This document shows, piece by piece, positions 10,708-63,179 of a DNA stretch of 64,000 nt (positions are counted from its first letter, which is position 1; each line of letters starts with the position of its first letter). The notes below the pieces were generated by a model. It searched no databases and was not told the DNA's origin. It saw nothing but the letters and a program-made list of their open reading frames with translations. The position numbers were made by a program, and so were the translations under genes. The stretch comes from an endosymbiont 'TC1' of Trimyema compressum (lineage in GTDB: Bacteria; Bacillota; TC1): contig NZ_CP014606.1 of assembly GCF_001584725.1 (NCBI RefSeq), positions 1,116,001 through 1,180,000 of the forward strand. The letters are read 5' to 3'.

Positions 10708-10785
10708 TGGACATATACTAAAAAAGTAGACAGGAAAAAGTGAAACATGTTTTAAATAAGTAGACACATAAGAAAGGATAAAATT

Positions 10786-11067
10786 ATGAATAATTACAAG
10801 AAATACGATGAAGAATTTAAAAAAAGTATTGTTAATTTACACCAAAACGGTAAAACTCAATCCCAACTTTCTAAAGAATATGGTGTCTCCATGTCTGCTT
10901 TACACAAGTGGATTAAACTTTATTCTCAGGTTAGAATTGATGATGATACTATTCTAACCGCTAAGCAGATTAAGGATCTTCAAAAGCGTAATGCTCGACT
11001 CTAGGAGGAAAATATCATTTTAAAAAAAGCAATTGCCATATTCACGCCTCACTCAGACAAAGATTAA
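10786..11067 (+). pseudogene. IS3 transposase OrfA with internal TAG (copy 1)
   Basis: OrfA binds the IS ends. MNNYKKYDEEFKKSIVNLHQ and the helix-turn-helix (TQSQLSKEYGVSMSALHKWI) are intact. The leucine-zipper region DLQKRNARL is cut by TAG at 11002, and the same frame continues EENIILKKAIAIFTPH to TAA at 11065. The family has Glu, Arg or Gln at the stop position, so one substitution explains it. GAAAGGA precedes the ATG at a normal distance. Confidence 0.9.
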
Positions 11068-11935
11068 TGGCTGTTCATACCCTTCGTTTTCAGCACGCTA
11101 TCTCTTTTCTTTGTCATGTCCTTAAAGTGAACCGCAGCTCCTATTACAAATACTTTTCGGAAAAACTTTCTCCTAGAACTATTGAGAATTAAAAACTCCG
11201 TCAGCTTATTCTCGGAGATTTGTCATCTTACTAAGAGACGTATTGGCCCATCTAAGATTAAGGCTCTTCTTTCCTATGACTATGGCATCAACATCAGTAT
11301 TGGTAGAGCGAGCCGCCTGATGACTGACATGAATCTTCCTAAAATGCCTACTATCAAACTTCGGTTTATTCATCCGAGGTCTATTCCCAATTTTGATTGC
11401 CCTAACTACCTAAATCAAAATTTTAATGTTCCTCAGCCCAATCAAGTCTGGGCTAGTGACATTACCTATATTAATTTAAATGCCTCTTTTGCTTATCTCT
11501 GTGTTATTATGGATTTATTTTCTCGTAAAATTATTGCTTGGAAGCTCTCTCTTAAAATTGATACTTCTCTTGTTAAGGATACTTTTATCAAAGCCTTTTA
11601 TTCTCAAAAACCTTCTACTTCTCTTATTTTTCATTCTGACAGAGGTTCCTAATATACTTCTTTTATCTTTAGAAAGCTCCTTGATTCTTTTGGTATCATT
11701 CAATCTTTTTCTAAGCTTTCTCATCCTTGGGACAATGCTGTCGTTGAGTCCTTTTTAAATATATGAAAAAAGAAGAAATTCTTCGTAGGTCTTTTTCTTC
11801 CTTTGCTCAAATTAAGCTTTCCTGCTTTGAACACATTGAGGGCTTCTACAACCCCCTATACGTCCCCACTCTGCTAATAACATTCTTTCTCCTAATTCCA
11901 AAGAAGACTATTTTTTCACTTCTATTAAAACTTAA
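11067..11935 (+). pseudogene. IS3 transposase OrfB (DDE integrase), several lesions (copy 1)
   Basis: The IS150-like catalytic subunit starts at ATG 11067, overlapping the orfA TAA. Landmarks are HAISFLCHVLKVNRSSYYKY, RRIGPSKIKALLSYDYGI, QVWASDITYI (first Asp), IFHSDRGS (second Asp) and HPWDNAVVESFL (Glu). Lesions are TAA at 11190, a frameshift near 11211, TAA at 11650 where the family has Gln in HSDRGSQYTS, a frameshift at about 11760 and another in the C-run near 11850. It cannot make an active protein as read. Confidence 0.92.
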
Positions 11936-11972
11936 TTTCACTTTTTCTATCTACTCTATTGACATTCTTCCA

Positions 11973-12108
11973 GTCAATTGTTTCTACAATGCTCCTTGGT
12001 TCCATTAAAGTTGCTTTGACTTAAATAGGCGTCTCAGCAACTGGACTGACAACTATTTCTTTTAATTCGTCAGGTGACTTAATTTCATCTTTATTTTTTC
12101 TTCAATTA
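11973..12108 (-). pseudogene. Unidentified 5' gene fragment abutting the IS
   Basis: DEIKSPDELKEIVVSPVAETPI can be read on the minus strand, then an in-frame TAA, then VKATLMEPRSIVETID up to the IS boundary. A good promoter lies just upstream. I do not recognise the protein. It is a gene beginning whose remainder was lost beyond the IS. Confidence 0.35.
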
Positions 12109-12132
12109 TAACATTATTGAATTTATATTCAA
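12105..12132 (-). promoter_or_regulatory. Sigma-A-type promoter
   Basis: On the minus strand TTGAAT is followed after 16 bases by TATAAT. It points toward the fragment at 11973-12108, away from the ABC transporter gene. Confidence 0.45.
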
Positions 12133-12160
12133 TATGCTTATGGAATTTATATTAATTTAT

Positions 12161-13879
12161 TTAGCTTTCAAAAGCAGCTTGATAGAGCCCATAATAAGCA
12201 CCTTGTTTTTTCATTAATTCATTGTGATTACCAACTTCTTCAATACCTTTTTCTGTCAGTACTACAATTCTATTGGCTTTTCTAATTGTACTTAATCGAT
12301 GAGCAATAATAAAAGTTGTGCGCCCCTTACTGAGTATTTCCATTGAAGCTTGAACAACTTTTTCACTTCTGTTATCAAGAGCTGATGTAGCCTCATCAAA
12401 AATAAGGATTGCTGGATTTTTCAAAAACATTCTCGCAATAGCGAGTCTTTGTTTTTGGCCTCCAGATAATTTAATCCCTCTTTCACCAATATAGGTATCA
12501 TAACCGTCATCTAAAGAAAGAATAAAGTCATGGATATATGCAAGCTTAGCAGCTTTTACAATTGCACTATCCTCAGCTTCAAGATTCCCATATTTAATAT
12601 TTTCTTTAATTGTACCAGAAAATAAAAATACATCTTGAGCAACTACGCCAATATGCTGCCTTAAGGAATCCATCTTAATATCTTGAATGGAAAGATCATC
12701 TACTAATATTGCTCCTTCGTTAATTTCATAAAAACGAGGGATTAACTGACATAAAGTAGTTTTACCAACGCCACTAGGCCCCACTAAGGCAATGGTTTCA
12801 CCTGCTTTAACCTCAAGATTAATATGATTTAAAACATAATCTCCTTCATCAGAATATCTAAATGATACATATTTAAAGGATACTTTACCTTGAGGATTTT
12901 CCCATAAAATAGCATCAGGTTTATCTTCGATTTCAGGTTCAATTTCCATCATTTCAACATAACGATGATATCCCGCCATTCCTTTTTGATAGATTTCAGC
13001 AAAAAAAGTAATTCTTTTAATAGGCTGAATCATAATACTCATATACATAATATAAGCAACTAAATCCCCTATAGTAATAGCACCATTAATAACAAAAAGA
13101 CCGCCTAAAACTGTACTTGTCAATGTTAAAATACCTGCAAAAAATGTTATGCTTCCAGATAACAAACCTAGTAATCTAAAGCCTTCCGTTCTTAAATCTC
13201 TAAAAAATTGATTGCCTTTATCAAACTTTTCTTTTTCGTATTCTTCATTTGTAAAGGATTGAACTACTCGGATTCCAAGTAAACTTTCTTCAATCTGACT
13301 ATTAACATTGCCAATGATTTTCCTAATACTTCTAAAGTTCTTTTTTATTTTTGTATTAATTTTTATAGTAAACCAAATCATAATAGGAATTATTGCAAAA
13401 ATAATCAATGTTAATGGTACATTTACAAATAATAAAAGAATAAATGAACCTACTAAAGTTATTATAGATATAAATACGTCTTCTGGTCCATGATGAGCCA
13501 ATTCCGTTATTTCATTTAAGTCATTGACAATTCGAGACATGATTTGACCAATTTTAGTCTCATCAAAAAATCTAAATGAAAAACGCTGCATATGTGAAAA
13601 TAACTTTTTTCGCATATCATACTCAATGCGAACACCTAATACATGACCAAAATAAGTCACAATATACTCAAGGAGAAAACGTAATCCATAAAGCACTAAA
13701 AATATCACAGCAAATATAATCAATAAATTAATATTTCTGTCAGAAATAATTGTATCAATTACGTAACGGCTTCCCTGAGGAAAAATCAAATCAGTAACTG
13801 CAATTAACAATGCACAAACCATATCCAAAAAAAATAAACCTAAATGGGGTTTATAGTATTGAGCAAAACTCTTAAGCAT
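12161..13879 (-). CDS. ABC exporter, fused membrane and ATPase domains
   Basis: A half-transporter of the MsbA/LmrA class working as a dimer for drug, lipid or peptide export. The first about 310 residues hold six membrane helices (for example LFFLDMVCALLIAVTDLIF and NLLIIFAVIFLVLYGLRFLL). The ATPase domain shows Walker A GPSGVGKTTL, the Q-loop VAQDVFLFSG, signature LSGGQKQRLAIAR, Walker B ILIFDEATSALD and the H-loop IAHRLSTI. At 572 residues it is full length and intact. It overlaps rimI by eight bases. The substrate cannot be told from sequence. Confidence 0.92.
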   Translation of the reverse strand: MLKSFAQYYKPHLGLFFLDMVCALLIAVTDLIFPQGSRYVIDTIISDRNINLLIIFAVIFLVLYGLRFLLEYIVTYFGHVLGVRIEYDMRKKLFSHMQRFSFRFFDETKIGQIMSRIVNDLNEITELAHHGPEDVFISIITLVGSFILLLFVNVPLTLIIFAIIPIMIWFTIKINTKIKKNFRSIRKIIGNVNSQIEESLLGIRVVQSFTNEEYEKEKFDKGNQFFRDLRTEGFRLLGLLSGSITFFAGILTLTSTVLGGLFVINGAITIGDLVAYIMYMSIMIQPIKRITFFAEIYQKGMAGYHRYVEMMEIEPEIEDKPDAILWENPQGKVSFKYVSFRYSDEGDYVLNHINLEVKAGETIALVGPSGVGKTTLCQLIPRFYEINEGAILVDDLSIQDIKMDSLRQHIGVVAQDVFLFSGTIKENIKYGNLEAEDSAIVKAAKLAYIHDFILSLDDGYDTYIGERGIKLSGGQKQRLAIARMFLKNPAILIFDEATSALDNRSEKVVQASMEILSKGRTTFIIAHRLSTIRKANRIVVLTEKGIEEVGNHNELMKKQGAYYGLYQAAFES

Positions 13880-14336
13880 CCCTTTCCTTTGCCTCCCTTA
13901 ATTTTAACCAAAAAACAAAGCCATCTTCAACTGGATTTGTATAATAATCTTTTCGTTTACCAGCAGCTTTGAAACCAAACTGTGTATAAAGCCCAATGGC
14001 CGCTTCATTACTGGTTCTCACTTCTAATGTAACAGCATCAATACCATTTTCAGTGGTTTGTCTCAAGCCATACTCTAAAAGTTTTTTGCCTATTCCTTGA
14101 CCTCTATAGTCACTGTGGACAGCAACATTGGTAATATGTCCCTCATTGAGAATATACCAGATACCAAAATACCCAACAGCCTTTGAATCTATTTCTGCTA
14201 CCAAATAGTGAGCTAAATCATTAGCCAATTCATCTCTAAATGCCTCTTTAGACCAAGGCGTTGAAAAAGCATTATTCTCAACAACCAGAATATTATTTAA
14301 ATGTTCTTCTTCTAAGGGCTTAATGATTACATCCAT
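13872..14336 (-). CDS. rimI: Ribosomal protein S18-alanine N-acetyltransferase
   Basis: A GNAT acetyltransferase. The 154 residues show IKPLEEEHLNNILVVENNAF at the start, the acetyl-CoA loop HSDYRGQGIGKKLLEYGL and the following VTLEVRTSNEAAIGLYTQFGF. Placement between tsaB and an ABC exporter, overlapping tsaB by 17 bases, is the standard tsaE-tsaB-rimI order and supports RimI over a generic GNAT. Intact. Confidence 0.88.
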   Translation of the reverse strand: MDVIIKPLEEEHLNNILVVENNAFSTPWSKEAFRDELANDLAHYLVAEIDSKAVGYFGIWYILNEGHITNVAVHSDYRGQGIGKKLLEYGLRQTTENGIDAVTLEVRTSNEAAIGLYTQFGFKAAGKRKDYYTNPVEDGFVFWLKLREAKERDA

Positions 14337-15015
14337 GTTTTTGCTCCCATTGAATCTCAGCTTCTGAGGGCCTAAAGTACTCGGGTTTTAAAGTAAAAGG
14401 ATTATCCGCTTCACCATTTTCAAAGGATTCCAGAGCTAGGAAAGCTACAGAAGATCCTTTTGGAATTCCAATTTCAGAATTGCAATTAATTAAAGGCACC
14501 TTTTTTTCCTGAAAAAATGAAGCATACTTTGTAAAACCATCACCTAAAAGCAAAATAGGTTCTTTAGGTAAATTATTAATAAAACTTTCAATAGAAATAA
14601 CTTGCTCATGCATTAGCAGTTCTAATTTACTATTGAATAAAGCACCATAAACCTCTTCTTTTCTACTGTATATTAAAGGACAAACATAATCAGCTAATCC
14701 TTTTCCATTGTAGGCAATTGCTTTTAAAGAAGAAATCCCAACTATGGGTAAGTTATTGGCATATGCAAGCATATTTGCTAAAGTTATGCCAATTCTCATA
14801 CCAGTAAAGGACCCTGGTCCCACTGAAACCCCAATACCATTAATAGTTTTTAACGAATAACCACTTACTTCCAGCAGCTGAATTACCATAGGCATTAATT
14901 GTGTAGAATGACCTTTTTTTATAGTATAGGTTATTTCGCCAATAACACCATATTCATTCACTAAAGCAACACTAGCAACATCTGTGCTACTTTCAATCCC
15001 AAGAAAAACCATCAA
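14320..15015 (-). CDS. tsaB: tRNA t6A synthesis protein TsaB
   Basis: Partner of TsaD and TsaE in making threonylcarbamoyladenosine at position 37 of ANN-decoding tRNAs. The ASKHA fold begins FLGIESSTDVASVALVNEYG and has the family-typical GHSTQLMPMV and VSVGPGSFTGMRIG. The 231 residues match the usual length. It overlaps tsaE by 23 bases and rimI by 17, suggesting translational coupling. Intact, as expected for an essential gene. Confidence 0.92.
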   Translation of the reverse strand: MMVFLGIESSTDVASVALVNEYGVIGEITYTIKKGHSTQLMPMVIQLLEVSGYSLKTINGIGVSVGPGSFTGMRIGITLANMLAYANNLPIVGISSLKAIAYNGKGLADYVCPLIYSRKEEVYGALFNSKLELLMHEQVISIESFINNLPKEPILLLGDGFTKYASFFQEKKVPLINCNSEIGIPKGSSVAFLALESFENGEADNPFTLKPEYFRPSEAEIQWEQKHGCNH

Positions 15016-15439
15016 TATCCCCTCTTATTTCTATTTCTCTTTCTGTTTCATTAAGTTTTTTAATCTCAACTTCAATAATATTACCATCATATAGTGTACG
15101 TACAACATCGCCCCATTCCACTATAGCAATGCCGTCTCCCATAAAAGCATCTTCTAAACCACTCATATAGGCTGCTTCCTCATTTTCTAAACGATAACCA
15201 TCAATATGATAAATTGGCATTGAATCACCACTATATATTTGCATCAGAGAAAAAGTTGGACTTGTTACCATATCCTTGGAACCTAAGCCAAGAGCCAGTC
15301 CTTTTGATAAATTGGTTTTACCAGCTCCTAAATCTCCTATTAATTCAAGAACAGTACCTTTTTTTAATTGTCTACCTATTTGTTCTCCTAATAAAATAGT
15401 TTCCTCAGAAGAATGGCTTAATAGTAGTTTTCTGTCCAC
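14993..15439 (-). CDS. tsaE: tRNA t6A synthesis ATPase TsaE
   Basis: A small P-loop ATPase that stimulates the TsaB-TsaD complex. Walker A is IGDLGAGKTNLSKGLALGLG, followed by VTSPTFSLMQIY and the IVEWGD motif typical of TsaE. At 148 residues the length is normal. It overlaps the amidohydrolase upstream by 22 bases and tsaB downstream by 23. Intact. Confidence 0.92.
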   Translation of the reverse strand: MDRKLLLSHSSEETILLGEQIGRQLKKGTVLELIGDLGAGKTNLSKGLALGLGSKDMVTSPTFSLMQIYSGDSMPIYHIDGYRLENEEAAYMSGLEDAFMGDGIAIVEWGDVVRTLYDGNIIEVEIKKLNETEREIEIRGDIDGFSWD

Positions 15440-16521
15440 TCTATTTTTTCTCCTTTAATAAATACATCTTTAACAAAGCTATTGTACTCAAATGGTGACT
15501 GACTATGTATAACCACATCCCCATCTTTACCAACATCTAATGAGCCAACTTGTTCCTCAACACCTAAAATTTGTGCAGCAGAGCATGTAATCATCTCGAA
15601 AGCATCCATTGGTGAAATACCATGCTTAATAACTTCCAATAAAGCAATTTTCAACATTTCTGGTGGATTGGATGGGTAGTCAGTCATAAAAGATACTTCA
15701 ACTGAATGGTCTTTCAATTTTGTCAGTAACTGTCTATTTAAATTAGCCATTTCCACTTTTGGACGCCCGATAAAAAAGGGACCTCCAACAAAAGAAACAT
15801 TACTATTCTTAATTTCATCAATTAAATAATGACCTTCCGTACCATGTTCAATGACCATATCTAAGTTAAATTCTTCTTTCAAATCTAAAGCAATTCTAAT
15901 ATCTTCTTCTCTATGGCAATGAACCCGTACCTTTAATTCACCTTTTAAAGCTTTCGCAATAAAGGCGTCCCCTTCTTTCATGACACCACTTGCAACTTGG
16001 CTAAAAGTATTATTTAAAATACTTCCAATTGCCATTTTTGTTTGAATCCTCTGAGAATGACAAGTTAATATATTATCACCTAAACTAATTTTTAAACCCT
16101 CATGCTTTTTCATTAAAGGGTTTTTGCCACCTGTCTTAACAACACAGCCTACCCCTGAAATAATATTTGAACTACCAGGTAAAACACCTACAGTGGTAAC
16201 ACCGCCGGTATGAAGCGCTTCTTTAAACCCCATATCAAAATATCGAATACCATAATGGGCTTCAATCCAAGGAGTCACTAAGTTAGTCCCTTCATTTAAA
16301 AGCTCTCTACTATAGACCTCTTCATATAAACCCAAATGAGTATGGGGATCAACAAAGCCTGGTAAAATTTGCTCTCCATTTTCATACAGATAACGCCTGC
16401 AATGACTTGGAATTACCAAGCTTTCTCCCACTGCAATAATTTTTCCATTTTCAATTAATAGAACTCCATTTTCAAGAATTTTTTGGGGATTTACCCAAAT
16501 TTCACCTTCAATACTAATCAT
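15418..16521 (-). CDS. Metal-dependent amidohydrolase (imidazolonepropionase-like)
   Basis: A hydrolase of the urease/imidazolonepropionase superfamily. Visible metal and catalytic sites are LPGFVDPHTHLGLYEE (about 60), KVRVHCHREEDI (about 200), MVIEHGTEGH (about 225) and FMTDYP (about 285). The typical N- and C-terminal beta-sandwich strands (GKIIAVGE; GSLDVGKDGDVVIH) flank the barrel. The 367 residues are intact. The substrate is unknown; imidazolonepropionate or a cyclic dipeptide-like compound are guesses. It lies between alr and tsaE in one operon. Confidence 0.82.
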   Translation of the reverse strand: MISIEGEIWVNPQKILENGVLLIENGKIIAVGESLVIPSHCRRYLYENGEQILPGFVDPHTHLGLYEEVYSRELLNEGTNLVTPWIEAHYGIRYFDMGFKEALHTGGVTTVGVLPGSSNIISGVGCVVKTGGKNPLMKKHEGLKISLGDNILTCHSQRIQTKMAIGSILNNTFSQVASGVMKEGDAFIAKALKGELKVRVHCHREEDIRIALDLKEEFNLDMVIEHGTEGHYLIDEIKNSNVSFVGGPFFIGRPKVEMANLNRQLLTKLKDHSVEVSFMTDYPSNPPEMLKIALLEVIKHGISPMDAFEMITCSAAQILGVEEQVGSLDVGKDGDVVIHSQSPFEYNSFVKDVFIKGEKIEWTENYY

Positions 16522-16529
16522 TTTAACCT

Positions 16530-17636
16530 CTATTTTCTCATATAAACTCTAGGAATTCTCTCACTAATTGAACAATAAACTTCATAAGGTATAGTTCCTA
16601 AAATATCGGCAAAAGTTTCAACAGGATTATCCTCTCCATAAAGAATAACCTCATCTTTTACTTTTACATTAGGAATATCTGTAACATCTAGCATTAATTG
16701 ATCCATACAAACATTACCAATAATTTTAGCTTTCTGTCCATGAACTAAAAAACAGCCTTTGTTCGATAGTTGCCTTGAAATACCATCAGCATAACCAATA
16801 GGTAAAACAGCAACTTTAGTTTTTCTTTCTGTTACAAAAGTGCCTTCATAACTTATAGGCTCTCCTTTTTCCATAGTTTTAATTTGAACAATCTTGCCCT
16901 TTAAAGTTAAAGGTTTTTTTAATTTCAGCTTATTCGCATAGGAATGATTCGTTGAAAAGGAGCCATACAGTAAAATCCCAGCTCTAACCATTTGAAAATG
17001 AGTTTCTGGCATTTCTATTAAAGTAGCACTATTAGCTAAATGCTTTGTAAGGGGTTTTTCTAAAATTGCTTCTAGTTGTTCAGCAAAAATCTTAAAACGT
17101 TCTAGCTGTTTTTGGCTATAGCTTAAATCCTCGCAACCACCATTAGCCATATGGGAAAAAATTCCTTCCACTTCTAAGTATTCTAAACTTTTCATTTCTT
17201 CAATAGCCTTAATAGTCTCTTTATTATCAGAAAAACCTAGACGATTCATACCTGTTTCAATTTTCAAATGAACCTTCCCTTTTTTATTCATTTTTTTACC
17301 AATATTATTAAGGGCTATAGCTTGTTCTAAAGTAAAAATTGTTTGGGTAATATTGTTTTCAATTAGCCAAGGATACTCCATTTCATCTGTATAGCCTAAA
17401 ACTAAAATGGGTTTGCCAATACCACCTTCTCTTAAGGCAATACCTTCCCCCATTAATGCTACACCAAACCCATCCACATCATTTTCTATAGCGAAACTCA
17501 ATGGGCTGGCGCCATGACCATATCCATTGGCTTTAATAATAGCCATAATCCCTACAGAAGGAGCTAATATTTTCTTTATTTCCCTCACATTATGTTCTAC
17601 ACTATTTAAATCTATTTCTGCCCAAACAGCACGCAT
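16530..17636 (-). CDS. alr: Alanine racemase
   Basis: Makes D-alanine for peptidoglycan using PLP. The PLP lysine is in AIIKANGYGHGASPL near the N-terminus. The second catalytic Tyr follows in the C-terminal beta domain, with GNVCMDQLMLDVT nearby. The 368 residues are normal length. It follows nnr after seven bases, an arrangement common in Bacillota. It ends with TAG, eight bases before the next start codon. Intact. Confidence 0.95.
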   Translation of the reverse strand: MRAVWAEIDLNSVEHNVREIKKILAPSVGIMAIIKANGYGHGASPLSFAIENDVDGFGVALMGEGIALREGGIGKPILVLGYTDEMEYPWLIENNITQTIFTLEQAIALNNIGKKMNKKGKVHLKIETGMNRLGFSDNKETIKAIEEMKSLEYLEVEGIFSHMANGGCEDLSYSQKQLERFKIFAEQLEAILEKPLTKHLANSATLIEMPETHFQMVRAGILLYGSFSTNHSYANKLKLKKPLTLKGKIVQIKTMEKGEPISYEGTFVTERKTKVAVLPIGYADGISRQLSNKGCFLVHGQKAKIIGNVCMDQLMLDVTDIPNVKVKDEVILYGEDNPVETFADILGTIPYEVYCSISERIPRVYMRK

Positions 17637-17643
17637 TCTACAT

Positions 17644-19158
17644 TTACTCCTTTATTTTCTCTAATAATTTATTATCATCTTTTATCTCACAAATAGCCTT
17701 AATTGCATTAGGTAAATAATCAATAATATCTAAGGCTGATAGAGAAAACTCACCTAAATCTTGAGCACCATAATCACCACTTAGTCCATGAAGAAAAGCC
17801 CCTACCCGTGCCCCTTCATAGGCTTCCAGTCCTTGAGCAATTAAACTGCCAATAATTCCTGATAAAACATCACCGCTACCTGCCGTTGCCATTCCAGGAT
17901 TACCAGTTAAATTAACAGTCACTGAATTACCATCTGTAATAATTGTTTTGTTGCCTTTTAAAACTGTTACACAATCCCAAACTCTACTACATTCTTTAGT
18001 AACGGCTATTCGACTGGCATTAACTGATTCAACATCGAAATCCATTAAAAATGCCATTTCTTTTGGATGAGGCGTAACCACTAAAGGTCCCCTTATCCAC
18101 TGTCTTTTAATAATACCTTGTTTTAATAAATGAAGACCATCTGCATCAATTAAAACAGGTCCATCATATAATAATAAAGGCGCTCTTAAATCAAAATCTA
18201 GACAATCGCCTAAACCAGGACCAATAACAACAACATCTGTTTTTTTATTTAAAAAATTTTGCCAAGAAGATAACATAAGCTCAGGTTCTCTACCAAGAGC
18301 ACTTGTTAACGCCTCTTCTTCCACCCAAAGGGTAACTAAACCACCGCCAGTTTTTAAAGCACTTTTACCTGCCATTAATGAGGCTCCAACCATTGTTTTA
18401 GCCCCTCCTAAAATACCAATATGACCATAGGTACCTTTATGAGTGTTTAATTTTCTCTTTAGAAAATATTTTTTAACTTCTCTTTTCTTTAAATAAGAAA
18501 GAACATGAGTCTCCGGTGGTTTTAAATTTGGGTCAAAAGAAATCTTACCCACTAAAACCTCTCCTAAATTATCACTTAAGATATGAGCCCATTTAGGATA
18601 TGCAAAAGTAACTGTCAAATCACTTTCAAAAAATAAATCACCTTTTCCAGTATTTCCATTGATTCCTGAAGGGATATCAACTGCAACTTTAAACCCTTCC
18701 CTATTATTAATTTGTTCAATTAAAACAGCTTCACTTTCACTTAAACTGCCCTTAAAACCAGTCCCAAACAAACCATCAATAAAAACAGTCCCTTGATTGA
18801 AATGCTTTTCTCCAAAACCTTCTAACTGATTATAGCTGTAAAAAGGAATATTCATTTTCATTGCTATGGCCTTTTGTAGCTGACACTCTTCACTTACAAT
18901 TTTAGCATTGCCAGATACATAACAGGAAACCTCTATTCCTAACGTATGTAATAAACGGGCAATAGCAATACCATCTCCCCCATTATTTCCTGAACCAGCT
19001 AAAATGATAACTTTTTGGTTTTTAAGGTTGATTCTCTCGCAAATAGCCTCAACAACTCTCAATGCTGCTTCTTCCATTAATACCATTGAAGGTATACCAT
19101 AGGATTCAATCATCTCATTATCTAACTGTCCCATGGCTTTGTTACTGATGGCTTCCAT
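17644..19158 (-). CDS. nnr: Bifunctional NAD(P)H-hydrate epimerase / dehydratase
   Basis: Repairs hydrated NADH and NADPH. The N-terminal YjeF_N epimerase covers about residues 1-215, with ILAGSGNNGGDGIAIARLL. The C-terminal ribokinase-like dehydratase follows, with GHIGILGGAKTMVGA, VIGPGLGD, VVTPHPKEMAFL and the catalytic GNPGMATAGSGDVLSGIIGS. The 504 residues are full length. Its stop overlaps nothing downstream, and its ATG overlaps the acpS stop (TAATGG). Confidence 0.94.
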   Translation of the reverse strand: MEAISNKAMGQLDNEMIESYGIPSMVLMEEAALRVVEAICERINLKNQKVIILAGSGNNGGDGIAIARLLHTLGIEVSCYVSGNAKIVSEECQLQKAIAMKMNIPFYSYNQLEGFGEKHFNQGTVFIDGLFGTGFKGSLSESEAVLIEQINNREGFKVAVDIPSGINGNTGKGDLFFESDLTVTFAYPKWAHILSDNLGEVLVGKISFDPNLKPPETHVLSYLKKREVKKYFLKRKLNTHKGTYGHIGILGGAKTMVGASLMAGKSALKTGGGLVTLWVEEEALTSALGREPELMLSSWQNFLNKKTDVVVIGPGLGDCLDFDLRAPLLLYDGPVLIDADGLHLLKQGIIKRQWIRGPLVVTPHPKEMAFLMDFDVESVNASRIAVTKECSRVWDCVTVLKGNKTIITDGNSVTVNLTGNPGMATAGSGDVLSGIIGSLIAQGLEAYEGARVGAFLHGLSGDYGAQDLGEFSLSALDIIDYLPNAIKAICEIKDDNKLLEKIKE

Positions 19159-19526
19159 TAGGCACCTCCTATTACAAAGGCAATAGCGTAGCCTCTTTCG
19201 TGACTAATAGAAACCTGCCATTCCTTAATATTTTTTTCTTCCATTATTTCTTTACAAAGACCACGAAGCAAAATAAAAGGACTTTCATCTTCATCCTTTA
19301 AGACTTCAATTTCATTAAGCAATTTTATAGAGCCCTTTTTCAGCACCTTTAAAACACTTTCTTTAACTGCAAATCTTGCAGCTAAAAAAGGAAGAGGATC
19401 CTGATGTTTCAAAGCATACCTCAGTTCCTTTTCCGTAAATGTTTTATTTCTTAAAGATTGGCGTTCTAAATAGGGTTTCATTCTACTAACTTTGACAATA
19501 TCTGCCCCTATGGCAATAACATTCAT
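19158..19526 (-). CDS. acpS: Holo-[acyl-carrier-protein] synthase
   Basis: Transfers phosphopantetheine to acyl carrier protein. AIGADIVKVSRMKPYLE holds the metal-binding Asp and ARFAVKESVLKVL the Glu. C-terminal VSISHERGYAIAFV is typical. I take the ATG at 19526 because GGTGGAGAG lies directly upstream; an ATG nine bases earlier is less well placed. First gene of the acpS-nnr-alr operon. Intact. Confidence 0.93.
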   Translation of the reverse strand: MNVIAIGADIVKVSRMKPYLERQSLRNKTFTEKELRYALKHQDPLPFLAARFAVKESVLKVLKKGSIKLLNEIEVLKDEDESPFILLRGLCKEIMEEKNIKEWQVSISHERGYAIAFVIGGA

Positions 19527-19572
19527 TCTCTCCACCTAACTTACTTCTATTTTACCATAAACATTCTCTTCT

Positions 19573-20248: not shown

Positions 20249-20363
20249 TTTGATTCCTTATACTATCTCGGATTTCTCTCAATCTTGGACATATACTAAA
20301 AAAGTAGACAGGAAAAAGTGAAACATGTTTTAAATAAGTAGACACATAAGAAAGGATAAAATT

Positions 20364-20645
20364 ATGAATAATTACAAGAAATACGATGAAGAATTTAAAA
20401 AAAGTATTGTTAATTTACACCAAAACGGTAAAACTCAATCCCAACTTTCTAAAGAATATGGTGTCTCCATGTCTGCTTTACACAAGTGGATTAAACTTTA
20501 TTCTCAGGTTAGAATTGATGATGATACTATTCTAACCGCTAAGCAGATTAAGGATCTTCAAAAGCGTAATGCTCGACTCTAGGAGGAAAATATCATTTTA
20601 AAAAAAGCAATTGCCATATTCACGCCTCACTCAGACAAAGATTAA
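20364..20645 (+). pseudogene. IS3 transposase OrfA with internal TAG (copy 2)
   Basis: Identical to the copy 1 orfA, including TAG after NARL at 20580. Confidence 0.9.
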
Positions 20646-21513
20646 TGGCTGTTCATACCCTTCGTTTTCAGCACGCTATCTCTTTTCTTTGTCATGTCCT
20701 TAAAGTGAACCGCAGCTCCTATTACAAATACTTTTCGGAAAAACTTTCTCCTAGAACTATTGAGAATTAAAAACTCCGTCAGCTTATTCTCGGAGATTTG
20801 TCATCTTACTAAGAGACGTATTGGCCCATCTAAGATTAAGGCTCTTCTTTCCTATGACTATGGCATCAACATCAGTATTGGTAGAGCGAGCCGCCTGATG
20901 ACTGACATGAATCTTCCTAAAATGCCTACTATCAAACTTCGGTTTATTCATCCGAGGTCTATTCCCAATTTTGATTGCCCTAACTACCTAAATCAAAATT
21001 TTAATGTTCCTCAGCCCAATCAAGTCTGGGCTAGTGACATTACCTATATTAATTTAAATGCCTCTTTTGCTTATCTCTGTGTTATTATGGATTTATTTTC
21101 TCGTAAAATTATTGCTTGGAAGCTCTCTCTTAAAATTGATACTTCTCTTGTTAAGGATACTTTTATCAAAGCCTTTTATTCTCAAAAACCTTCTACTTCT
21201 CTTATTTTTCATTCTGACAGAGGTTCCTAATATACTTCTTTTATCTTTAGAAAGCTCCTTGATTCTTTTGGTATCATTCAATCTTTTTCTAAGCTTTCTC
21301 ATCCTTGGGACAATGCTGTCGTTGAGTCCTTTTTAAATATATGAAAAAAGAAGAAATTCTTCGTAGGTCTTTTTCTTCCTTTGCTCAAATTAAGCTTTCC
21401 TGCTTTGAACACATTGAGGGCTTCTACAACCCCCTATACGTCCCCACTCTGCTAATAACATTCTTTCTCCTAATTCCAAAGAAGACTATTTTTTCACTTC
21501 TATTAAAACTTAA
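20645..21513 (+). pseudogene. IS3 transposase OrfB, several lesions (copy 2)
   Basis: Identical to the copy 1 orfB: stops at 20768 and 21228 (the latter in the HSDRGSQ motif) and the same three frameshifts. Confidence 0.9.
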
Positions 21514-21550
21514 TTTCACTTTTTCTATCTACTCTATTGACATTCTTCCA

Positions 21551-21925
21551 AGCTAATGTATATGTTATGTCAATTTTTTCCCATACCGCATACAAAGTAA
21601 CATCACTTGTTCCCATTGTAAATAGTGCTTCATCAGTATACTCTATATTTCCATCTTCTTGTGTTGACCAACCTATAAAAGTATTTTCATCACTTAAAAA
21701 TTCATTTTTTGGTAAATTTTGACTTTCTCTTTCAATAAGGGTAATAAGGTTCATTATTCCTTGTCCTGATGTTCCATTAAAGCTTACTGTATGCTTATTT
21801 TGTTGCCATTGGGCATATAAGGTTGTATCATAACCTAGCATTGTTGTTTTATTAAAATCCCACTGTAATCCACACTGCCATCTGCTTCTGTATTCCATCC
21901 ACAAGATTCTGTAAACCATATGCCA
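21551..21925 (-). pseudogene. InlB B-repeat (Flg_new) surface protein fragment
   Basis: Two incomplete copies of the Listeria-Bacteroides repeat are readable: GYDTTLYAQWQQNKHTVSFN, and NTFIGWSTQEDGNIEYTDEA followed by DVTLYAVWEKIDITYTLAW. An upstream piece (SCGWNTEADGSVDY) is in another frame. These repeats occur in long secreted or wall-anchored adhesins. Everything after ITYTLAW is replaced by the IS, and the signal peptide and wall anchor are missing. Confidence 0.75.
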
Positions 21926-30711: not shown

Positions 30712-30810
30712 GCTTAAGTGACATTGTGTAAATTGTATACTTTATACCCTTAAAAAATTACACTTCACTGCAACAATACCTCCTTCCTAAATATTATTTT
30801 ATTGCATAAT

Positions 30811-30950
30811 CTTCAGTATGTCTTCTGGCTTACATATCATCTTTCATCTACCTTCCCATTCCAAATAGAACAGTGGTTTTATTAGACTTCATCAATGCTT
30901 ACAGCAGCGGAGGCTGAAACGGGTTCACACCGTTTTCCCTTAAACTGAAA
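30811..30950 (-). ncRNA. Cobalamin riboswitch
   Basis: Minus-strand RNA shows the conserved order GGGAA, GGTGTGAACCC, the B12 box neighbourhood CAGCCTCCGCTGCTGTAAGC, GATGAAG, CCACTG, GGGAAGG, GATGA and AAGCCAGAAGAC. TTTCAGT and ACTGAAG close P1. It controls the downstream cbiM-N-Q-O/hem/cbi operon. The aptamer looks complete although most genes under it are broken. Confidence 0.93.
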
Positions 30951-31040
30951 ATTTTACTATTCAATTTTTATTTAATCTCATTATAGTTTATCTAACTATC
31001 TATTACAATAGATGTAAAAATATTTGTAATATGTTCTAAA

Positions 31041-53767: not shown

Positions 53768-53779
53768 ATTAGTTAAAAT

Positions 53780-54073: not shown

Positions 54074-54308
54074 GATTTCACCTTCTTCCTAAAATCAATA
54101 CTGTCATTTTTGTTAATATATTGTACCAATGCGTCATATCATAATTTATGTTTGTCTGTCAATAATGATAAGCGATATGCGTTTAAATAGGTGTAAAAAT
54201 ATTTAGTTAATAAGCCTAAAATAAGAGCTAGAAATTAATTTAACTCTTTTGCTTGTCGCTTATCTGTATAGTCAAACTCCTCAAGCTCATTACCTAGGGA
54301 GTATTACC

Positions 54309-54582: not shown

Positions 54583-54605
54583 TTTACTTATTAAAATCAT
54601 TAACC

Positions 54606-55616: not shown

Positions 55617-55650
55617 TCTCCACAATAACCTTTCACTAAAAATAAAGAAA

Positions 55651-56273
55651 TTATTCATTAATCGGAATATCATTTAAAGTCCAAATGATTTTAGTTTGAT
55701 AAGCTCCCATAACAGCTTCACCTGGATTCACGTTTAAACTAATATTACTACCATTCCAAATTGTTGACCAACCAAGTAATCCCTCCTTAGTTTTTGCTGC
55801 AGCTTTTTGCACAACTGTTGGAAATGACTTTCCATTTAAATCAACAGCATCTACATAAAGAGAGTCGCTAACACCTGGTTTTTTGCATTAGGAACATTAT
55901 TTTTTACTGGATTTGCATTAGGATTAGCTATTTTAATATTATTACCACTTAAAGCAATACCTTCTTTTGTTCTCATTTTTTCAGCTTGAACTGTTACATT
56001 GTACCCACTATCCGTTCCCCTATTATCAGTAACAATCATTTGATATGTATCATTTTCGCCTAAGGGAATTATATCAGGATATAATGTCAATGGTATCGGT
56101 TTAAAAGAAAAAATTTTAGGAACTGAATCCAACGTTAACTTATCAGGTTGAAATTCAGCATTTACAGTCGTTTCCCCAATACCAGCTATTCCTGCTCTCA
56201 ACGGTGTCCCTAGCATTCCCAATTCAAATACAAAACCTAACAATAAAATAATAATTATCTTTTTCTTCATCAT
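55651..56273 (-). pseudogene. WxL-domain surface protein, frameshifted
   Basis: The signal peptide (MKKKIIIILLLGFVFELGML) precedes TTVNAEFQPDKLTLDSVPKI, IPLGENDTYQMIVTDNRGTD and VTVQAEKMRTKEGIALSGNN. After a frameshift near 55860 come VQKAAAKTKEGLLGWSTIWN and the C-terminal WxL block VMGAYQTKIIWTLNDIPINE. WxL domains bind peptidoglycan non-covalently. About 200 residues with one indel. Confidence 0.75.
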
Positions 56274-56483
56274 AATTCATCTCCTTACTAATATTTCTTA
56301 CAAAATATTTATGGGTCGCCTTTATATTCTATTATTTTATATTACATTTGTTGTTGTAATATGTCAATGCTTTTTTAGTAAAATTTATTTATACTTTTCG
56401 CTTGCCCCTATAAAATAAGCTTATAATAAAATATATCTTGATTTGAAAAATAATTCAATAATATATCAACCAATTATACAACA

Positions 56484-56523
56484 AAAAAGAGCCTAGAGAA
56501 ATCACTCCCCTAGGCTTTTTACT
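56484..56523 (-). terminator. Terminator after the SHOCT gene
   Basis: AAAAAGAGCCTAG pairs with CTAGGCTTTTT. Located just past the stop of the SHOCT remnant. The gap 56274-56483 holds no gene I can see. Confidence 0.75.
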
Positions 56524-56536
56524 ATTCTTGCTCTGA

Positions 56537-56885
56537 CTAACCTAACAACTGTTTCTTTTTAGCATCAAACTCATCTTCAGTGATAATTCCTTCGTCGCAT
56601 AAAAGTTTGTATTTTCTAATTTCATCAGCAACACTGACTGTTCCAGATGTAACATTACTTTTTTTACAAGTCATCAGCTCTTCCAATTTCTGCTTTATTT
56701 TTCCCACTAAATCATTATGTTTTTTTGTATACATAATTGTGTTCTCATCTCTAGCTGCATTCATAATACCTTTGTTGCTTCAATTCCTCCAGTTATAGTG
56801 AACTGTATATAACCGCTCGTAACTAAAGTCCCTTTAACAACTTGGATACTGATTATATCTTCAAGAGGTAGCTAAAAAATGTTGT
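56537..56885 (-). pseudogene. PH-like/SHOCT-domain protein, frameshifted
   Basis: LPLEDIISIQVVKGTLVTSG, YIQFTITGGIEATK (membrane-associated PH-like/DUF4429 end) is shifted relative to MNAARDENTIMYTKKHNDLV and the SHOCT motif ADEIRKYKLLCDEGIITEDE, FDAKKKQLLG at the C-terminus. The upstream part of the PH-like domain is missing, and the bases up to 57065 hold nothing clear. Confidence 0.72.
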
Positions 56886-57065
56886 TAGGCGAATAAGTCA
56901 ATGTGCTTAGAAATTTTACAAATAGCTTTGCAAAAGATTTGAAATATATGCAATAACATCTATTGGATTTGGTACTTTTTAATGAGAAGATTCTATAAAA
57001 CTCAATAATAAAGCAACACTTAAATCAAAGTGCTGAGATTTAGCTGCTTTGATAAAACACATAAA

Positions 57066-57115
57066 AAGAGGGTGTCTCAAATTTTTACTATTTTGAGACA
57101 TTCCCTTTTATTCTA
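57066..57115 (-). terminator. Hairpin terminator after the aldo/keto reductase
   Basis: AAGAGGGTGTCTCAAA pairs with TTTTGAGACATTCCCTTTT, allowing one mismatch. It lies downstream of the reductase gene on the minus strand. Confidence 0.75.
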
Positions 57116-57143
57116 ATTCATAATGCTCTTAGGTTTACTCCAG

Positions 57144-57948
57144 TTAAAAATCGAAATTATCTGGATCAGGCCCAAAACGATGATTGTCGTTTAAAGTAGC
57201 AATTCTCTTCATATCAGCTTCTTCAATCTGGAAATCAAAGATCTCTAAATTCTCAATTAAGCGACTTTCATGAACCGTTTTCGGAACGGGGATAACGCCC
57301 ATTTGATGAGCCCAACGCAAAAGAATTTGAGAAATGCAACGCTTATACTTTTCACCTATTTCCTGAAATAAAGGAATTTCAAATCCATGACCCTGCATGA
57401 GTGGCGCCCAACCAGTTAAAATAATATCTTCATTATTACAAAAATTTAGTAATTCTTTTTGAACTAGTCGAGGATGAAATTCTATTTGATTAACCATTGG
57501 CATAATTTTAGCTGTTTTCATTAACTCATGCAAATGATGAACCTAAAAATTAGCTACGCCAATAGCCTTAACAAGACCTTCGCTGTAGAGCTTTTCTAAG
57601 GCTTTCCATGTGTCACTACTATGAGGTTTTGGCCAATGTACTAAATATAAATCTACATAATTAAAATTTAACTTTTTTAACGATGTTTCGAAAGCTTTAA
57701 GTGTCTTATCATAACCCTGATCATCATTCCACACTTTTGTAGTTAAAAATATCTCTTCTCTAGCTATACTACATTCATTAATACCCGCTCCAACTTCAGC
57801 TTCATTAAAATAAAATGCTGCTGTGTCAATATAACGATAACCTAATTCTATAGCATCTCTAACTATCCGAGTAGTATCATCACAGTTTTTCCATATTCCT
57901 AAGCCAATTGAGGGCATTTTTGCCATTTTTTAATGTCATGAATTCCAT
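57144..57948 (-). pseudogene. Aldo/keto reductase with in-frame TAG and start frameshift
   Basis: An NADPH-dependent carbonyl reductase. MEFMTLKNG (57948) is shifted relative to MPSIGLGIWKNCDDTTRIVR. Catalytic residues are Asp and Tyr in YRYIDTAAFYFNEAEVGAG, Lys in EEIFLTTKVWN and His in YVDLYLVHWPK. A TAG at 57543 follows GLVKAIGVANF, and the same frame continues VHHLHELMKTAKIMPMVNQI to PVPKTVHESRLIENL and 57144. The family often has Gln or Asn there. Two small lesions separate it from a normal protein of about 270 residues. Confidence 0.88.
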
Positions 57949-58073
57949 TTGTTCTTCCTCCTTAATAAATATTTATATGTTAATCTAGTATACCTTTTAA
58001 TAAAAGAATATTCAATGCGGCACAAGCGATTTGCATTAGAAAAAAGCCTAGAGAAACTCAATCTGAAGTGATA

Positions 58074-58113
58074 TAAAGATGGTAGACACAAAAAGATTGC
58101 GTCTACCATCTTT
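58074..58113. terminator. Hairpin terminator
   Basis: AAAGATGGTAGAC pairs with GTCTACCATCTTT, with T following on the plus strand. The stretch 57949-58073 holds no gene. Confidence 0.7.
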
Positions 58114-58169
58114 TAATATATACTAAAAAAGAGTGAGAACGTGGAAGGGTTATACTTAAATGGACATGA

Positions 58170-58450
58170 ACTTTTGAAAACTAACCTTTCACACAGAATT
58201 TAAAACAGCTAGAGACAGTCTTGGTTTAAATCCTAGGGCCACCTTCCACTCTCTTAGAAAAACTAATGCAACAATCATGGCCGAGAACAATATTAGCAGT
58301 AGGGAAATAAAACAGAGACTGGGTCATGGAGACATTGCTGTCTCAGATTGCTACTATATAAAGGAAACTGTTAAAAATCAAAAAAAGGCTGCATCAATAA
58401 AATATTTATTGCTCTCTTATTTTTTTAATATTTTTTGGTCGTCAAACTAG
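58170..58450 (+). pseudogene. Tyrosine recombinase C-terminal remnant (second)
   Basis: TEFKTARDSLGLNPRATFHS, LRKTNATIMAENNISSREIK, QRLGHGDIAVSDCYYIKETV. The H-x-L-R, LGH and final Tyr of integrases are visible (Tyr in DCYYI). It differs from the remnant at 22728, so it came from another element. It lies 50 bases from a tRNA 3' fragment. Confidence 0.8.
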
Positions 58451-58498
58451 TCATCAAAGCACTAAAAAAGGATTCCAATAAAATTACCGAAACCCTCT

Positions 58499-58553
58499 TG
58501 GTGCGAGAGATGGGACTTGAACCCACATAATGTTACTCACACGCCCCTCAAAG
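58499..58553 (-). other. tRNA 3' fragment (Leu-like), probable attachment-site relic
   Basis: On the minus strand a T-arm GTGGGTTCAAGTCCCAT, acceptor half CTCTCGC and ACCA are preceded by a long variable arm and TTTGAGG, which could be a GAG anticodon loop. The 5' half is not recognisable beyond 58553. An integrase relic on the other side fits an att site. Confidence 0.6.
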
Positions 58554-58653
58554 CCATAAAGCTAGCTATTTACAAGCTAAACACATAATTAAATGGCTAA
58601 TTTGCATATTTTATTTTCTTTCTTTTTCTTTTATTTTGTTTTCTAAAGTGTCA

Positions 58654-58687
58654 TTCAGAGTGTCATTAAACATCTTGACACTCTGAA
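58654..58687. repeat. Perfect 12-base inverted repeat
   Basis: TTCAGAGTGTCA and TGACACTCTGAA separated by 10 bases, preceded by a further AGTGTCATT. No T-run, so it may be an operator or recombinase site. The rest of 58554-58845 holds no gene I can see. Confidence 0.55.
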
Positions 58688-58845
58688 AGGGATTTCTATT
58701 ATTCTAATAAATGATTTGTAAAAACATTTAGCATTTTGGATAAACTTTTTGATATGCAGTCATCTGTTTTTATGGATATGACAAGAATACATATCACAAT
58801 AAATAAAATCAATTTCAACGACAATATAATAATATACTCCTTTAC

Positions 58846-59240
58846 TTATCTTGCTGTATGTATAACAAGGTAACATTCTGCTAAAATAAATCCATCAGTT
58901 AACAAATTGTCATTAAACTCTTTAAATGATTTTTTCGTAACAAAATATCTATCATATTCTATATTGTTTTTAGAAATTCTTTCTTTTTTGCTACGTATTT
59001 TTCTATATCTATATTGCTTTTGGTAAATGCTTTTACCTCAACTAGGCATTTGCCTAGTCTCATTATTGATAAAAATCAAATTGGCTTTTTTCCTGAATGA
59101 CTTTTTCATTAAAATAATAATATCATCTGGAATCACTCCAAAACTTCGAGCAGTATTAGACATTCCATTCATTTCAAGATAACCTATTGCTAATTTATGA
59201 AATATCGGAATACTAATTAAATTAAACTAAAATAAAAATT
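58846..59240 (-). pseudogene. Unknown small protein remnant between RHS gene and att relic
   Basis: FNLISIPIFHKLAIGYLEMN, GMSNTARSFGVIPDDIIILM, then in another frame LSIMRLGKCLVEVKAFTKSN, IDIEKYVAKKKEFLK, then YDRYFVTKKSFKEFNDNLLT, DGFILAECYLVIHTAR. About 120 residues, alpha/beta, with two or more shifts. No family recognised. Its place after an RHS gene fits a former immunity gene, which is a guess. Confidence 0.4.
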
Positions 59241-59313
59241 AATATTTAAATTCCTGCAATTGCCTTCACGGGAAAACTCCTCTTATGATTAGCCTTTACC
59301 AATCCTTTCTTAC

Positions 59314-59560
59314 TTATATATTATAAACTTCAATTTTTAAACTATCCTTTTTATCGTAAAAAAAATCAATTACAGTACCATTGCCATAGGTTGAAGATAG
59401 CATATTATGATAAACAGAATCATAAATGTTTCTTGAAATACTTTTACCATTTATATTTGAAGCAATTTTTCTTCCCCAGTTATTTTATTCAAAAGTATAG
59501 CTGATCCAAAGCCGTCAACTACAGCTTTTAGTAAATATATATATTGATTGAGAATTGTAC
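59314..59560 (-). pseudogene. Unknown small protein remnant
   Basis: LLKAVVDGFGSAILLNKITG and, in another frame, GRKIASNINGKSISRNIYDS, VYHNMLSSTYGNGTVIDFFY, DKKDSLKIEVYNI. About 80 residues, with no family I recognise. Confidence 0.35.
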
Positions 59561-59606
59561 TTTTAATCTTTTAAGTAGAATTCTATTCACTTCTAATAAA
59601 TTTGTT

Positions 59607-60041
59607 TCATTCTAGATACTCCCAAGCACTCAAGATAACATAATATGGAAAAATAATTAAAATACTAGCAATGAAACCTAATACTATTTTAAATACAAAT
59701 GTTAGCACTGAACCTAAAATAATAGATAAACATGTTGGAAGGATAATTAACAAGATAAAAAGAAGCATGTCTACTATTATGATAGCATAGACTTTTTGTA
59801 ATGTTATTTTTAGAGATTTTCTATAGTTGGCCTTATTGAAAACAAACATAAATCCAAGTGAAAATACAATTGGGAAAATTAATAATACGAATAATAGTAA
59901 AAACAACATTACAGCGTAATAATAAAATAATGGATAACCTGATCTGACTGTCAAAGGGATAATCATAGTTATATTTACAAAAAGCGATGCGAAAATAATA
60001 CATATTGTAATGCAAAATATATATATGATACTTTTTATCAA
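59607..60041 (-). CDS. Polytopic membrane protein, unknown
   Basis: The 144 residues have four hydrophobic helices (IIYIFCITICIIFASLFVNI, YYYAVMLFLLLFVLLIFPIV, YAIIIVDMLLFILLIILPTC, FKIVLGFIASILIIFPYYVI). The first codon would be TTG and I see no ribosome site, so it may be the frame-shifted second part of the gene at 60051-60266. It lies two genes downstream of an RHS C-terminus, a usual place for immunity genes. Confidence 0.5.
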   Translation of the reverse strand: MIKSIIYIFCITICIIFASLFVNITMIIPLTVRSGYPLFYYYAVMLFLLLFVLLIFPIVFSLGFMFVFNKANYRKSLKITLQKVYAIIIVDMLLFILLIILPTCLSIILGSVLTFVFKIVLGFIASILIIFPYYVILSAWEYLE

Positions 60042-60050
60042 AACAAATTT

Positions 60051-60266
60051 TCAATTGAGATGGTATTTTTTATTCAAATACCTTTTTAATATGAAAGAAA
60101 AAACAGTTATTGCAAAAATTAAAAGAACAGCTATTAACCAGTTATTTACTTCATTATAGTATAAAAACGAATATAAACGGCTAATTAGAATAACTAGCAT
60201 ATTGAAAATAAATGAAATTAAAATTATTTTTCTATTATCATTTAAAAATCCAAAATATTTTTTCAT
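60051..60266 (-). CDS. Small membrane protein, unknown
   Basis: AAGGAGG lies seven bases upstream of the ATG. The 71 residues have two helices (IILISFIFNMLVILISRLY and WLIAVLLIFAITVFSFILKR) and a basic tail (NKKYHLN). It may continue into the 59607 frame. First gene downstream of the RHS C-terminus. The gap 60267-60645 between them holds only a weak inverted repeat (AATCAATCCTAT/ATAGGATTGG at about 60345-60392). Confidence 0.5.
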   Translation of the reverse strand: MKKYFGFLNDNRKIILISFIFNMLVILISRLYSFLYYNEVNNWLIAVLLIFAITVFSFILKRYLNKKYHLN

Positions 60267-60645
60267 TTTTTCTCCTCCTTAATAATCAGAATTTTTATAA
60301 CAATGTATCTTTGTTTAGCCAATTTGAATATAGAATAGAAAGGAATCAATCCTATTAAATAAAACATACTAAAACAAGAACTTATAGGATTGGTTTTCAA
60401 CTCACTAAAGAGTCAACGATAATATAATTACTAGAAATTAGTACGCCTTAAAATCTTACAGATAACTGTAATTACAATTGTTAAAGAGTTTGATAGAATT
60501 CTCTTTTCACTTCTTAAAATTAAAACAATTGTCTATACAATTCCATAAGTAATTATCAATCATTAAGCTAACTACCAATACGTTTAAAAACTAGCATTAT
60601 TTCTCTTGTTAGTAAATTATTCTTATGATTCCAACATAAGAAATT

Positions 60646-61914
60646 TTACCAATCTTTTTTTATTCCAAAATAATAAGTATCTTTTGTGCCATATCCATCG
60701 TCCCCAAAAAAGCCAAAAGCAAATGGATCATCTGAAGGTCCAGTAAGATTACCTTTTCCATCAATCGTCCAATATTTTGCTTCTGCAACACTAGATTCTA
60801 AATTTACTGTTAAATTCCCAGCACCACTTTTACTATACCAAATACCGTCAATTTGGACAATAAAATGATATCTATGCTCATTTCTTTTTGCAATAACTTT
60901 ATTATATAAACTAGAATCAAGTTTTTCAACTTTGCCAAATCATCTTGAAGCGAAATATTCGAACTACCAATATCATCTTCTATAGAATTAATGAAACTCT
61001 TACCAGTTTTATTAAGATCATATCTAGTTTGTCTACCAGTAGCTGTACCATAGCAGTCAAAACTAATAGGGTCATAAGTTGTTCCACTTGTTCTTACATC
61101 AATTTTATTTGATACACTAGCAGGTTTTTGATATTCATTTGGTGGTAACTTCCATATGCTCAACCACCACTTCTCAATCATTTGGCCTAACCAATTAAAA
61201 AACTTACCCTCACGATCAATATTATTAATAGGATTATTACCACAATAGGCAAACATATTAGAATCGAATGCACCTTCGCCAGTATTTACATAAACATCTC
61301 CATTAATAAATCTACCTATTTCAGGATTATAATACCTTTGTTGTAAATAATAATATCCGGATTCCTCATCATAAAAATAAGAGCGATATCTAAGTGGGTT
61401 CTCAATCCCAATAGTATCTTTTAATTCCCCGCTAATTTCCTTTATATTCCCCCAACTATCATAGACATAAGATACTACTTCTTTTCCATTATTGTCAAGA
61501 ATACCTTCTACATCATTCTGAGCATTTAACTTGTAATGATAGGTATCACCATCTTTCACCATAGAAATTAGATCTCCTGTATAGCCTCTATTAAAGATTA
61601 TTATTGAATTATTAGTTTTTTGTCCAACAACTTCTCCATTTGAAGTTGCATATTCCGTAACTTCAGAATCAACTTTTTTGCTTGTTCTAATTCCATCTGC
61701 ATCATAATTGTATACTGTCGATTGATTATCCTGCTTAAAAGAAGCTAGGCGTCTTCCTTGTTTCCGAATATGTTCTTTGTTACCAAAAACTAAAACATTG
61801 CCAATTTCATCATAAGTTAATGTTTCTCCATCATACTTAACTAACAAATCCTTCCATTTATCATCATACACATATTCTTTTTCCGTTAATGATTCCCTAT
61901 CTTTAATTGATTTT
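60646..61914 (-). pseudogene. RHS/YD-repeat protein, C-terminal part with possible toxin domain
   Basis: YD-repeat core pieces are DGETLTYDEIGNVLVFGN, STVYNYDADGIRTSKKVDSE and NDVEGILDNNGKEVVSYVYD. The RHS core end follows: YYLQQRYYNPEIGRFINGDV, FAYCGNNPINNIDREGKF. Beyond lies a unique C-terminal region (GRQTRYDLNKTGKSFINSIE), a one-base shift near 60945, and LYNKVIAKRNEHRYHFIVQI, DGIWYSKSGAGNLTVNLESS to FGIKKDW at 60646. The 5' end is cut exactly at the IS. Confidence 0.82.
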
Positions 61915-61951
61915 TGGAAGAATGTCAATAGAGTAGATAGAAAAAGTGAAA

Positions 61952-62820
61952 TTAAGTTTTAATAGAAGTGAAAAAATAGTCTTCTTTGGAATTAGGAGAA
62001 AGAATGTTATTAGCAGAGTGGGGACGTATAGGGGGTTGTAGAAGCCCTCAATGTGTTCAAAGCAGGAAAGCTTAATTTGAGCAAAGGAAGAAAAAGACCT
62101 ACGAAGAATTTCTTCTTTTTTCATATATTTAAAAAGGACTCAACGACAGCATTGTCCCAAGGATGAGAAAGCTTAGAAAAAGATTGAATGATACCAAAAG
62201 AATCAAGGAGCTTTCTAAAGATAAAAGAAGTATATTAGGAACCTCTGTCAGAATGAAAAATAAGAGAAGTAGAAGGTTTTTGAGAATAAAAGGCTTTGAT
62301 AAAAGTATCCTTAACAAGAGAAGTATCAATTTTAAGAGAGAGCTTCCAAGCAATAATTTTACGAGAAAATAAATCCATAATAACACAGAGATAAGCAAAA
62401 GAGGCATTTAAATTAATATAGGTAATGTCACTAGCCCAGACTTGATTGGGCTGAGGAACATTAAAATTTTGATTTAGGTAGTTAGGGCAATCAAAATTGG
62501 GAATAGACCTCGGATGAATAAACCGAAGTTTGATAGTAGGCATTTTAGGAAGATTCATGTCAGTCATCAGGCGGCTCGCTCTACCAATACTGATGTTGAT
62601 GCCATAGTCATAGGAAAGAAGAGCCTTAATCTTAGATGGGCCAATACGTCTCTTAGTAAGATGACAAATCTCCGAGAATAAGCTGACGGAGTTTTTAATT
62701 CTCAATAGTTCTAGGAGAAAGTTTTTCCGAAAAGTATTTGTAATAGGAGCTGCGGTTCACTTTAAGGACATGACAAAGAAAAGAGATAGCGTGCTGAAAA
62801 CGAAGGGTATGAACAGCCAT
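61952..62820 (-). pseudogene. IS3 transposase OrfB, several lesions (copy 3)
   Basis: Same translated segments and same stops and frameshifts as copies 1 and 2, including the stop in HSDRGSQ at 62235. Confidence 0.9.
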
Positions 62821-63101
62821 TAATCTTTGTCTGAGTGAGGCGTGAATATGGCAATTGCTTTTTTTAAAATGATATTTTCCTCCTAGAGTCGAGCATTACG
62901 CTTTTGAAGATCCTTAATCTGCTTAGCGGTTAGAATAGTATCATCATCAATTCTAACCTGAGAATAAAGTTTAATCCACTTGTGTAAAGCAGACATGGAG
63001 ACACCATATTCTTTAGAAAGTTGGGATTGAGTTTTACCGTTTTGGTGTAAATTAACAATACTTTTTTTAAATTCTTCATCGTATTTCTTGTAATTATTCA
63101 T
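62820..63101 (-). pseudogene. IS3 transposase OrfA with internal TAG (copy 3)
   Basis: Same as copies 1 and 2, with TAG after NARL at 62883. Confidence 0.9.
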
Positions 63102-63179
63102 AATTTTATCCTTTCTTATGTGTCTACTTATTTAAAACATGTTTCACTTTTTCCTGTCTACTTTTTTAGTATATGTCCA

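Follow-up and report, generated by a model that had tools for sequence, protein, structure and literature searches.

The window analysed here (a stretch of 64,000 nucleotides, C1:1116001-1180000, with a G+C content of 32%, from a genome of 1,622,248 bases in two contigs) contains three identical copies of an IS3-family insertion sequence disabled by the same stop codons and frameshifts, and most of these lesions are present in every full-length copy of the genome. We consider that, with a probability of roughly 55%, an earlier burst of insertion was followed by the homogenisation of the dead copies by recombination (concerted evolution). It appears that here, in a bacterium unrelated to Wolbachia, uniformity has again been maintained among the copies of an entirely dead insertion sequence in a decaying genome. 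Near-identity among insertion sequence copies is no proof of recent transposition.

The element and its shared lesions

The three copies are situated at 10708-11972 (+ strand, locus L006), 20286-21550 (+ strand, L005) and 61915-63179 (- strand, L004) of the window. As the preliminary description had indicated, all of them measure 1265 bp, and they are identical (between copies 1 and 3 the match runs over 1268 bp, the extra bases agreeing by coincidence). In copy 1, the left end (10708-10767) and the right end (11913-11972) form an imperfect ~50-bp inverted repeat, with tips TGGA and TCCA, respectively. The interior comprises a remnant of orfA (10786-11067, + strand), with a match to HTH_Tnp_1 (43 bits), and a remnant of orfB (11070-11935, + strand), whose open part (11182-11649) matches rve (68 bits), both scores being above the Pfam cut-offs. 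In IS3 elements, orfA and orfB overlap at an A-rich slippery run, where one programmed shift takes place; the same trait is found here, as the frame of orfB is -1 relative to that of orfA and a T4A7G run (11017-11030, + strand), probably the programmed -1 shift site, is situated at the end of orfA. The NCBIfam IS3 model gives 216-219 bits against a cut-off of 160, but only when the stops are read through, and the orfA and orfB pieces taken singly fall below it. With a HTH-containing orfA, a rve/DDE orfB, terminal inverted repeats and a slippery run, the element is an IS3 family insertion sequence. Around copy 3, ORFs resembling parts of an RHS-type surface protein (recognised by eye) are found at 60810-61928 and 63144-63980 (-).

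Translation of copy 1 reveals a TAG in the orfA remnant (11002-11004), two TAA in the orfB remnant (11190-11192 and 11650-11652) and three changes of the orfB frame (within 11211-11222, 11746-11765 and 11847-11862), all of them on the + strand. This is the set of lesions previously ascribed to the three window copies, and it is confirmed by translation and by the identity of their sequences; a chance origin of the pattern is excluded. Two IS3 relatives from other genomes resemble the element in their HTH and rve parts, and differ from it in having an open orfB (L060, a 249-aa piece with 49% identity to the core) or a fused reading frame (L062, a 413-aa ORF with 41% identity), which run in one frame across the lesion regions.

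Readthrough of the stops and shifts had also been suggested; it would allow a working transposase to be made. The A-rich run is indeed like the programmed-shift run of IS3 elements, but recoding would be required at two or three stops and, in addition, at three further shifts, one of the stops is still polymorphic, and the long intact genes of the window follow translation table 11; this option found no support and we regard it as highly improbable. A different genetic code was likewise discarded, since the frameshifts would persist under it and long standard-code genes exist. Many reading frames in the window look broken.

Variation among copies across the genome

When the genome itself was searched at the DNA level, 41 matches were obtained, corresponding to 29 full-length copies, seven partial copies (L030-L036, with double matches for two of them) and three short matches resembling the ends; the element was absent from the 60 relatives searched, two of which gave just 30- and 45-base matches. 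Eighteen of the full copies equal the window copy, five carry one substitution, two have one missing base and four show both; thus, 11/29 vary, solely at element positions 5, 311 and 943, with one state dominant at each, and no private differences were seen in the alignment of the 29. With the seven partial copies included, the position 5 variant occurs in 4/35, and 6/35 have lost one base at position 311, within the T4A7G run. All three backgrounds set by positions 5 and 943 include copies with this deletion, a distribution compatible with recombination or with repeated slippage. Among the partial copies, L033 and L034 have a 93-bp internal deletion in common, and L034 additionally presents a 23-bp insertion. 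The restriction of variation to three positions with one dominant state favours homogenisation; on the other hand, zero-to-few private differences would be equally expected after a very recent burst. The boundary between donor and recipient tracts cannot be drawn inside the element, as there is almost no variation there. In the preliminary description, the copies had spread recently enough to look identical: the identity holds, but the recency does not follow, because the identity of copies would not date their insertions if they were homogenised.

Regarding the lesions, the TAG, the first TAA and the three frameshifts are present in 29/29 full-length copies, and the second TAA in 26/32 copies covering the site (6/32 are without it). 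Both the TAG and a one-base insertion near element position 507 are carried by 34/35 copies, the sole exception in each case being the truncated stub L031; the alignment of 29 full and 7 partial copies was invariant at the first TAA and at the two remaining frame changes. L031 has the first TAA and was hence dead by the time of its truncation; since it has neither the TAG nor the insertion at 507, these later lesions spread through an already dead element. The lesions are nested, and the varying ones are real differences between copies. Miscalls driven by sequence context were evaluated as their source, and are ruled out by L031 for the TAG and the insertion at 507, being possible for the two run-length shifts.

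According to the homogenisation account, an IS3-family element would have multiplied in a now decaying genome, and its transposase would have been lost stepwise, presumably through the first TAA, then the TAG and the one-base insertion, and then the second TAA (leaving the two run-length shifts unplaced). Crossover and non-reciprocal copying between dead copies would keep spreading one version, and the same recombination would lead to deletions and inversions, stranding copies between unrelated genes.

The uniformity might also have been introduced by assembly or polishing, with the reads of other copies outvoting private differences and bleeding past the ends of each copy. The lack of private differences among 29 full copies is what such an effect would produce, and the T4A7 run, in which 6/35 copies differ, also speaks for it. 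Nonetheless, variation is seen in the stub L031, at the second TAA and at position 5, and the effect would not itself create lesions in most copies; we consider it unlikely, also in view of the flanks described below.

Flanking sequences and insertion junctions

The right flank of copy 2 (L005, window positions 21551-21902) recurs at L034 (352 bp), L016 (306-307 bp) and L033 (183 bp) with 99-100% identity, so these four loci have the 3' part of the element and 183-352 bp of right flank in common, together with four different left flanks. As reciprocal exchange cannot add copies of a flank, the arrangement is read as non-reciprocal copying, repeated duplication by another route being another possible explanation; the shared stretch is too long for the read overhang that an assembly effect would involve. 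L005 and L016 show three differences over 307 bp of right flank; a reading of these as divergence was rejected, since the alignment places them where the shared stretch ends. Furthermore, one neighbouring element, uninterrupted at two other loci, seems to be divided between L023 and L018, its two parts fitting the left flank of the former and the right flank of the latter. These two copies are inverted, with starts ~3.5 kb apart, and such a division is expected from an inversion between them. Recombination scars are still visible around dead copies, and recA is complete. The flank copied to four loci, the inversion that splits the neighbouring element and the intact recA favour homogenisation, and make copying of the defect by gene conversion the best supported of the three options previously put forward. 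We infer that recombination, and not a helper transposase, is the main homogeniser, with RecA presumably carrying it out. The mutL gene is split by copy L007 (C1:1006848-1008821), with model positions 1-83 and 427-553 on its two sides, and no mutL match passes the model cut-off in the genome; mismatch repair has probably been lost, and its loss may have aided homogenisation.

Family scans covered 20/58 flanks, with no match in 1/10 NCBIfam and 5/10 Pfam queries. Different genes were found on the two sides of L003 (purC and a RHS/YD-repeat protein), L019 (LRR and xanthine dehydrogenase), L013 (guaA-like and ABC ATPase) and L027 (amidohydrolase and a Listeria-Bacteroides repeat, the repeat match being just below the Pfam cut-off). 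Only a truncated piece of purC was found in the genome. The guaA-like pseudogene (C1:322531-323161) ends at L013, and a complete guaA is located ~10 kb away (C1:311448-312377).

A target duplication of 3-5 bp is usual, not defining, for the IS3 family. No duplication of 3-10 bp was found at any of the 29 full copies; 2-bp flank agreement occurs in 1/29 (3/29 in a control 40 bp out) and 1-bp agreement in 0/29 (control, 8/29). The one clean empty site shows a gain of the element plus 4 bp, with no duplication visible. Target duplications may have been lost after insertion, and a precedent for their absence is provided by Amoebophilus asiaticus, a host-dependent bacterium with many insertion sequence copies: there, 101/122 full-length copies are without direct repeats (PMC3196728).

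On the right, the first base outside the element is always A or G (L016 left out, as its flank duplicates that of L005); among the 29 left flanks, 23 end in T, four in C and two in A. Besides, the first 5-12 bases outside the copies (e.g., from window positions 11973 and 21551) are shared between otherwise unrelated loci. Among right flanks (28, without L016), the pairs sharing at least 5, 6 and 8 bases amount to 41, 22 and 9, against control means of 0.96, 0.32 and 0.03; among the 29 left flanks, the corresponding figures are 24, 16 and 4, against 0.95, 0.22 and 0.01. The words shared on the right include AGCCT (8 of 29) and GTAGC (5), and those on the left TTTTT (6) and CCTTT (4). Overshooting recombination, bleeding of the assembly consensus or duplication-free insertion could each cause this junction pattern. 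The excess of shared words over the controls is in keeping with the assembly effect, as is the empty site, where the gain is 4 bp and only element-side bases are altered, which is how an overwritten 4-bp duplication would look. A simple reshuffling of copies whose duplications were initially normal was rejected, because the left and right flank pools mismatch; that these pools differ, unlike what such shuffling of normal insertions would give, also counts against homogenisation.

It is also conceivable, albeit improbable in our opinion, that dead copies are still being written to new places by recombination which starts in the element, runs past its ends for anything from a few to several hundred bases and joins via short homology. 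If this were true, target duplications would be erased, donor words (such as AGCCT) would be left beside the recipients and unrelated genes would be welded together, i.e., an insertion sequence would spread without transposase. Should the flank words prove real in raw reads, the donor copy would be traceable at each site. At L017, an ATP-NAD-kinase-like gene is present on both sides, and its frame needs ~5 extra bases compared with its homologues; a Tn916-like 5-bp coupling was discarded there, since this gene has itself decayed into a pseudogene, and the gain at the cleaner empty site is +4.

Possible helper transposase, known parallels and orientation

The preliminary description had also proposed a functional relative acting in trans. 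In such a scenario, the dead version would have been mobilised by an active sibling or a same-ended relative in a recent burst, and the helper would later have been lost or broken. A short burst would yield both near-identity and nested variants, and fragments of a related element do exist at C1:1310166-1310777, sharing the last 45 positions with the element at 98% (match at C1:1310732). However, an IS3 model search of the genome gave 92 matches, 30 of them above the cut-off, and 30/30 contain stops; the assembly (completeness given as 96.88%) yielded no full-length IS3 transposase free of stops, the longest stop-free IS3-matched stretch being 153 aa, from a second IS3-type element. The absence of target duplications of at least 3 bp at 29/29 copies and of any duplication at the known empty site also argues against a helper. 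An intact copy with matching ends was sought genome-wide and none was found, the end-sharing relative being fragmentary. On balance, we hold mobilisation in trans, by a helper since lost, to be doubtful. The second IS3-type element is represented by an identical 882-bp stretch at C1:77044-77925 and 1216197-1217078, and has no full-length open transposase.

In Wolbachia wBm, gene conversion is described as maintaining insertion sequences that are non-functional (PMC3196728). The original paper on this strain is said to be that of Cordaux in 2009. The element studied here is similar in that near-identical copies share multiple stops and frameshifts. It differs in belonging to a different bacterium (low-GC, with Bacillota-type genes) and in its 29 full copies, and conversion is here deduced, not measured.

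In 24/29 copies, it is the strand opposite to the element that is rich in purines in the flanks (p = 0.0005); with purine richness as a sign of the coding strand, the element would mostly be antisense relative to neighbouring genes. Its orientation also depends on the contig half, with 4 plus and 13 minus copies in one against 9 plus and 3 minus in the other (Fisher p = 0.0095). Apart from the element, the window contains a cobalamin riboswitch at 30798-30964 (- strand).
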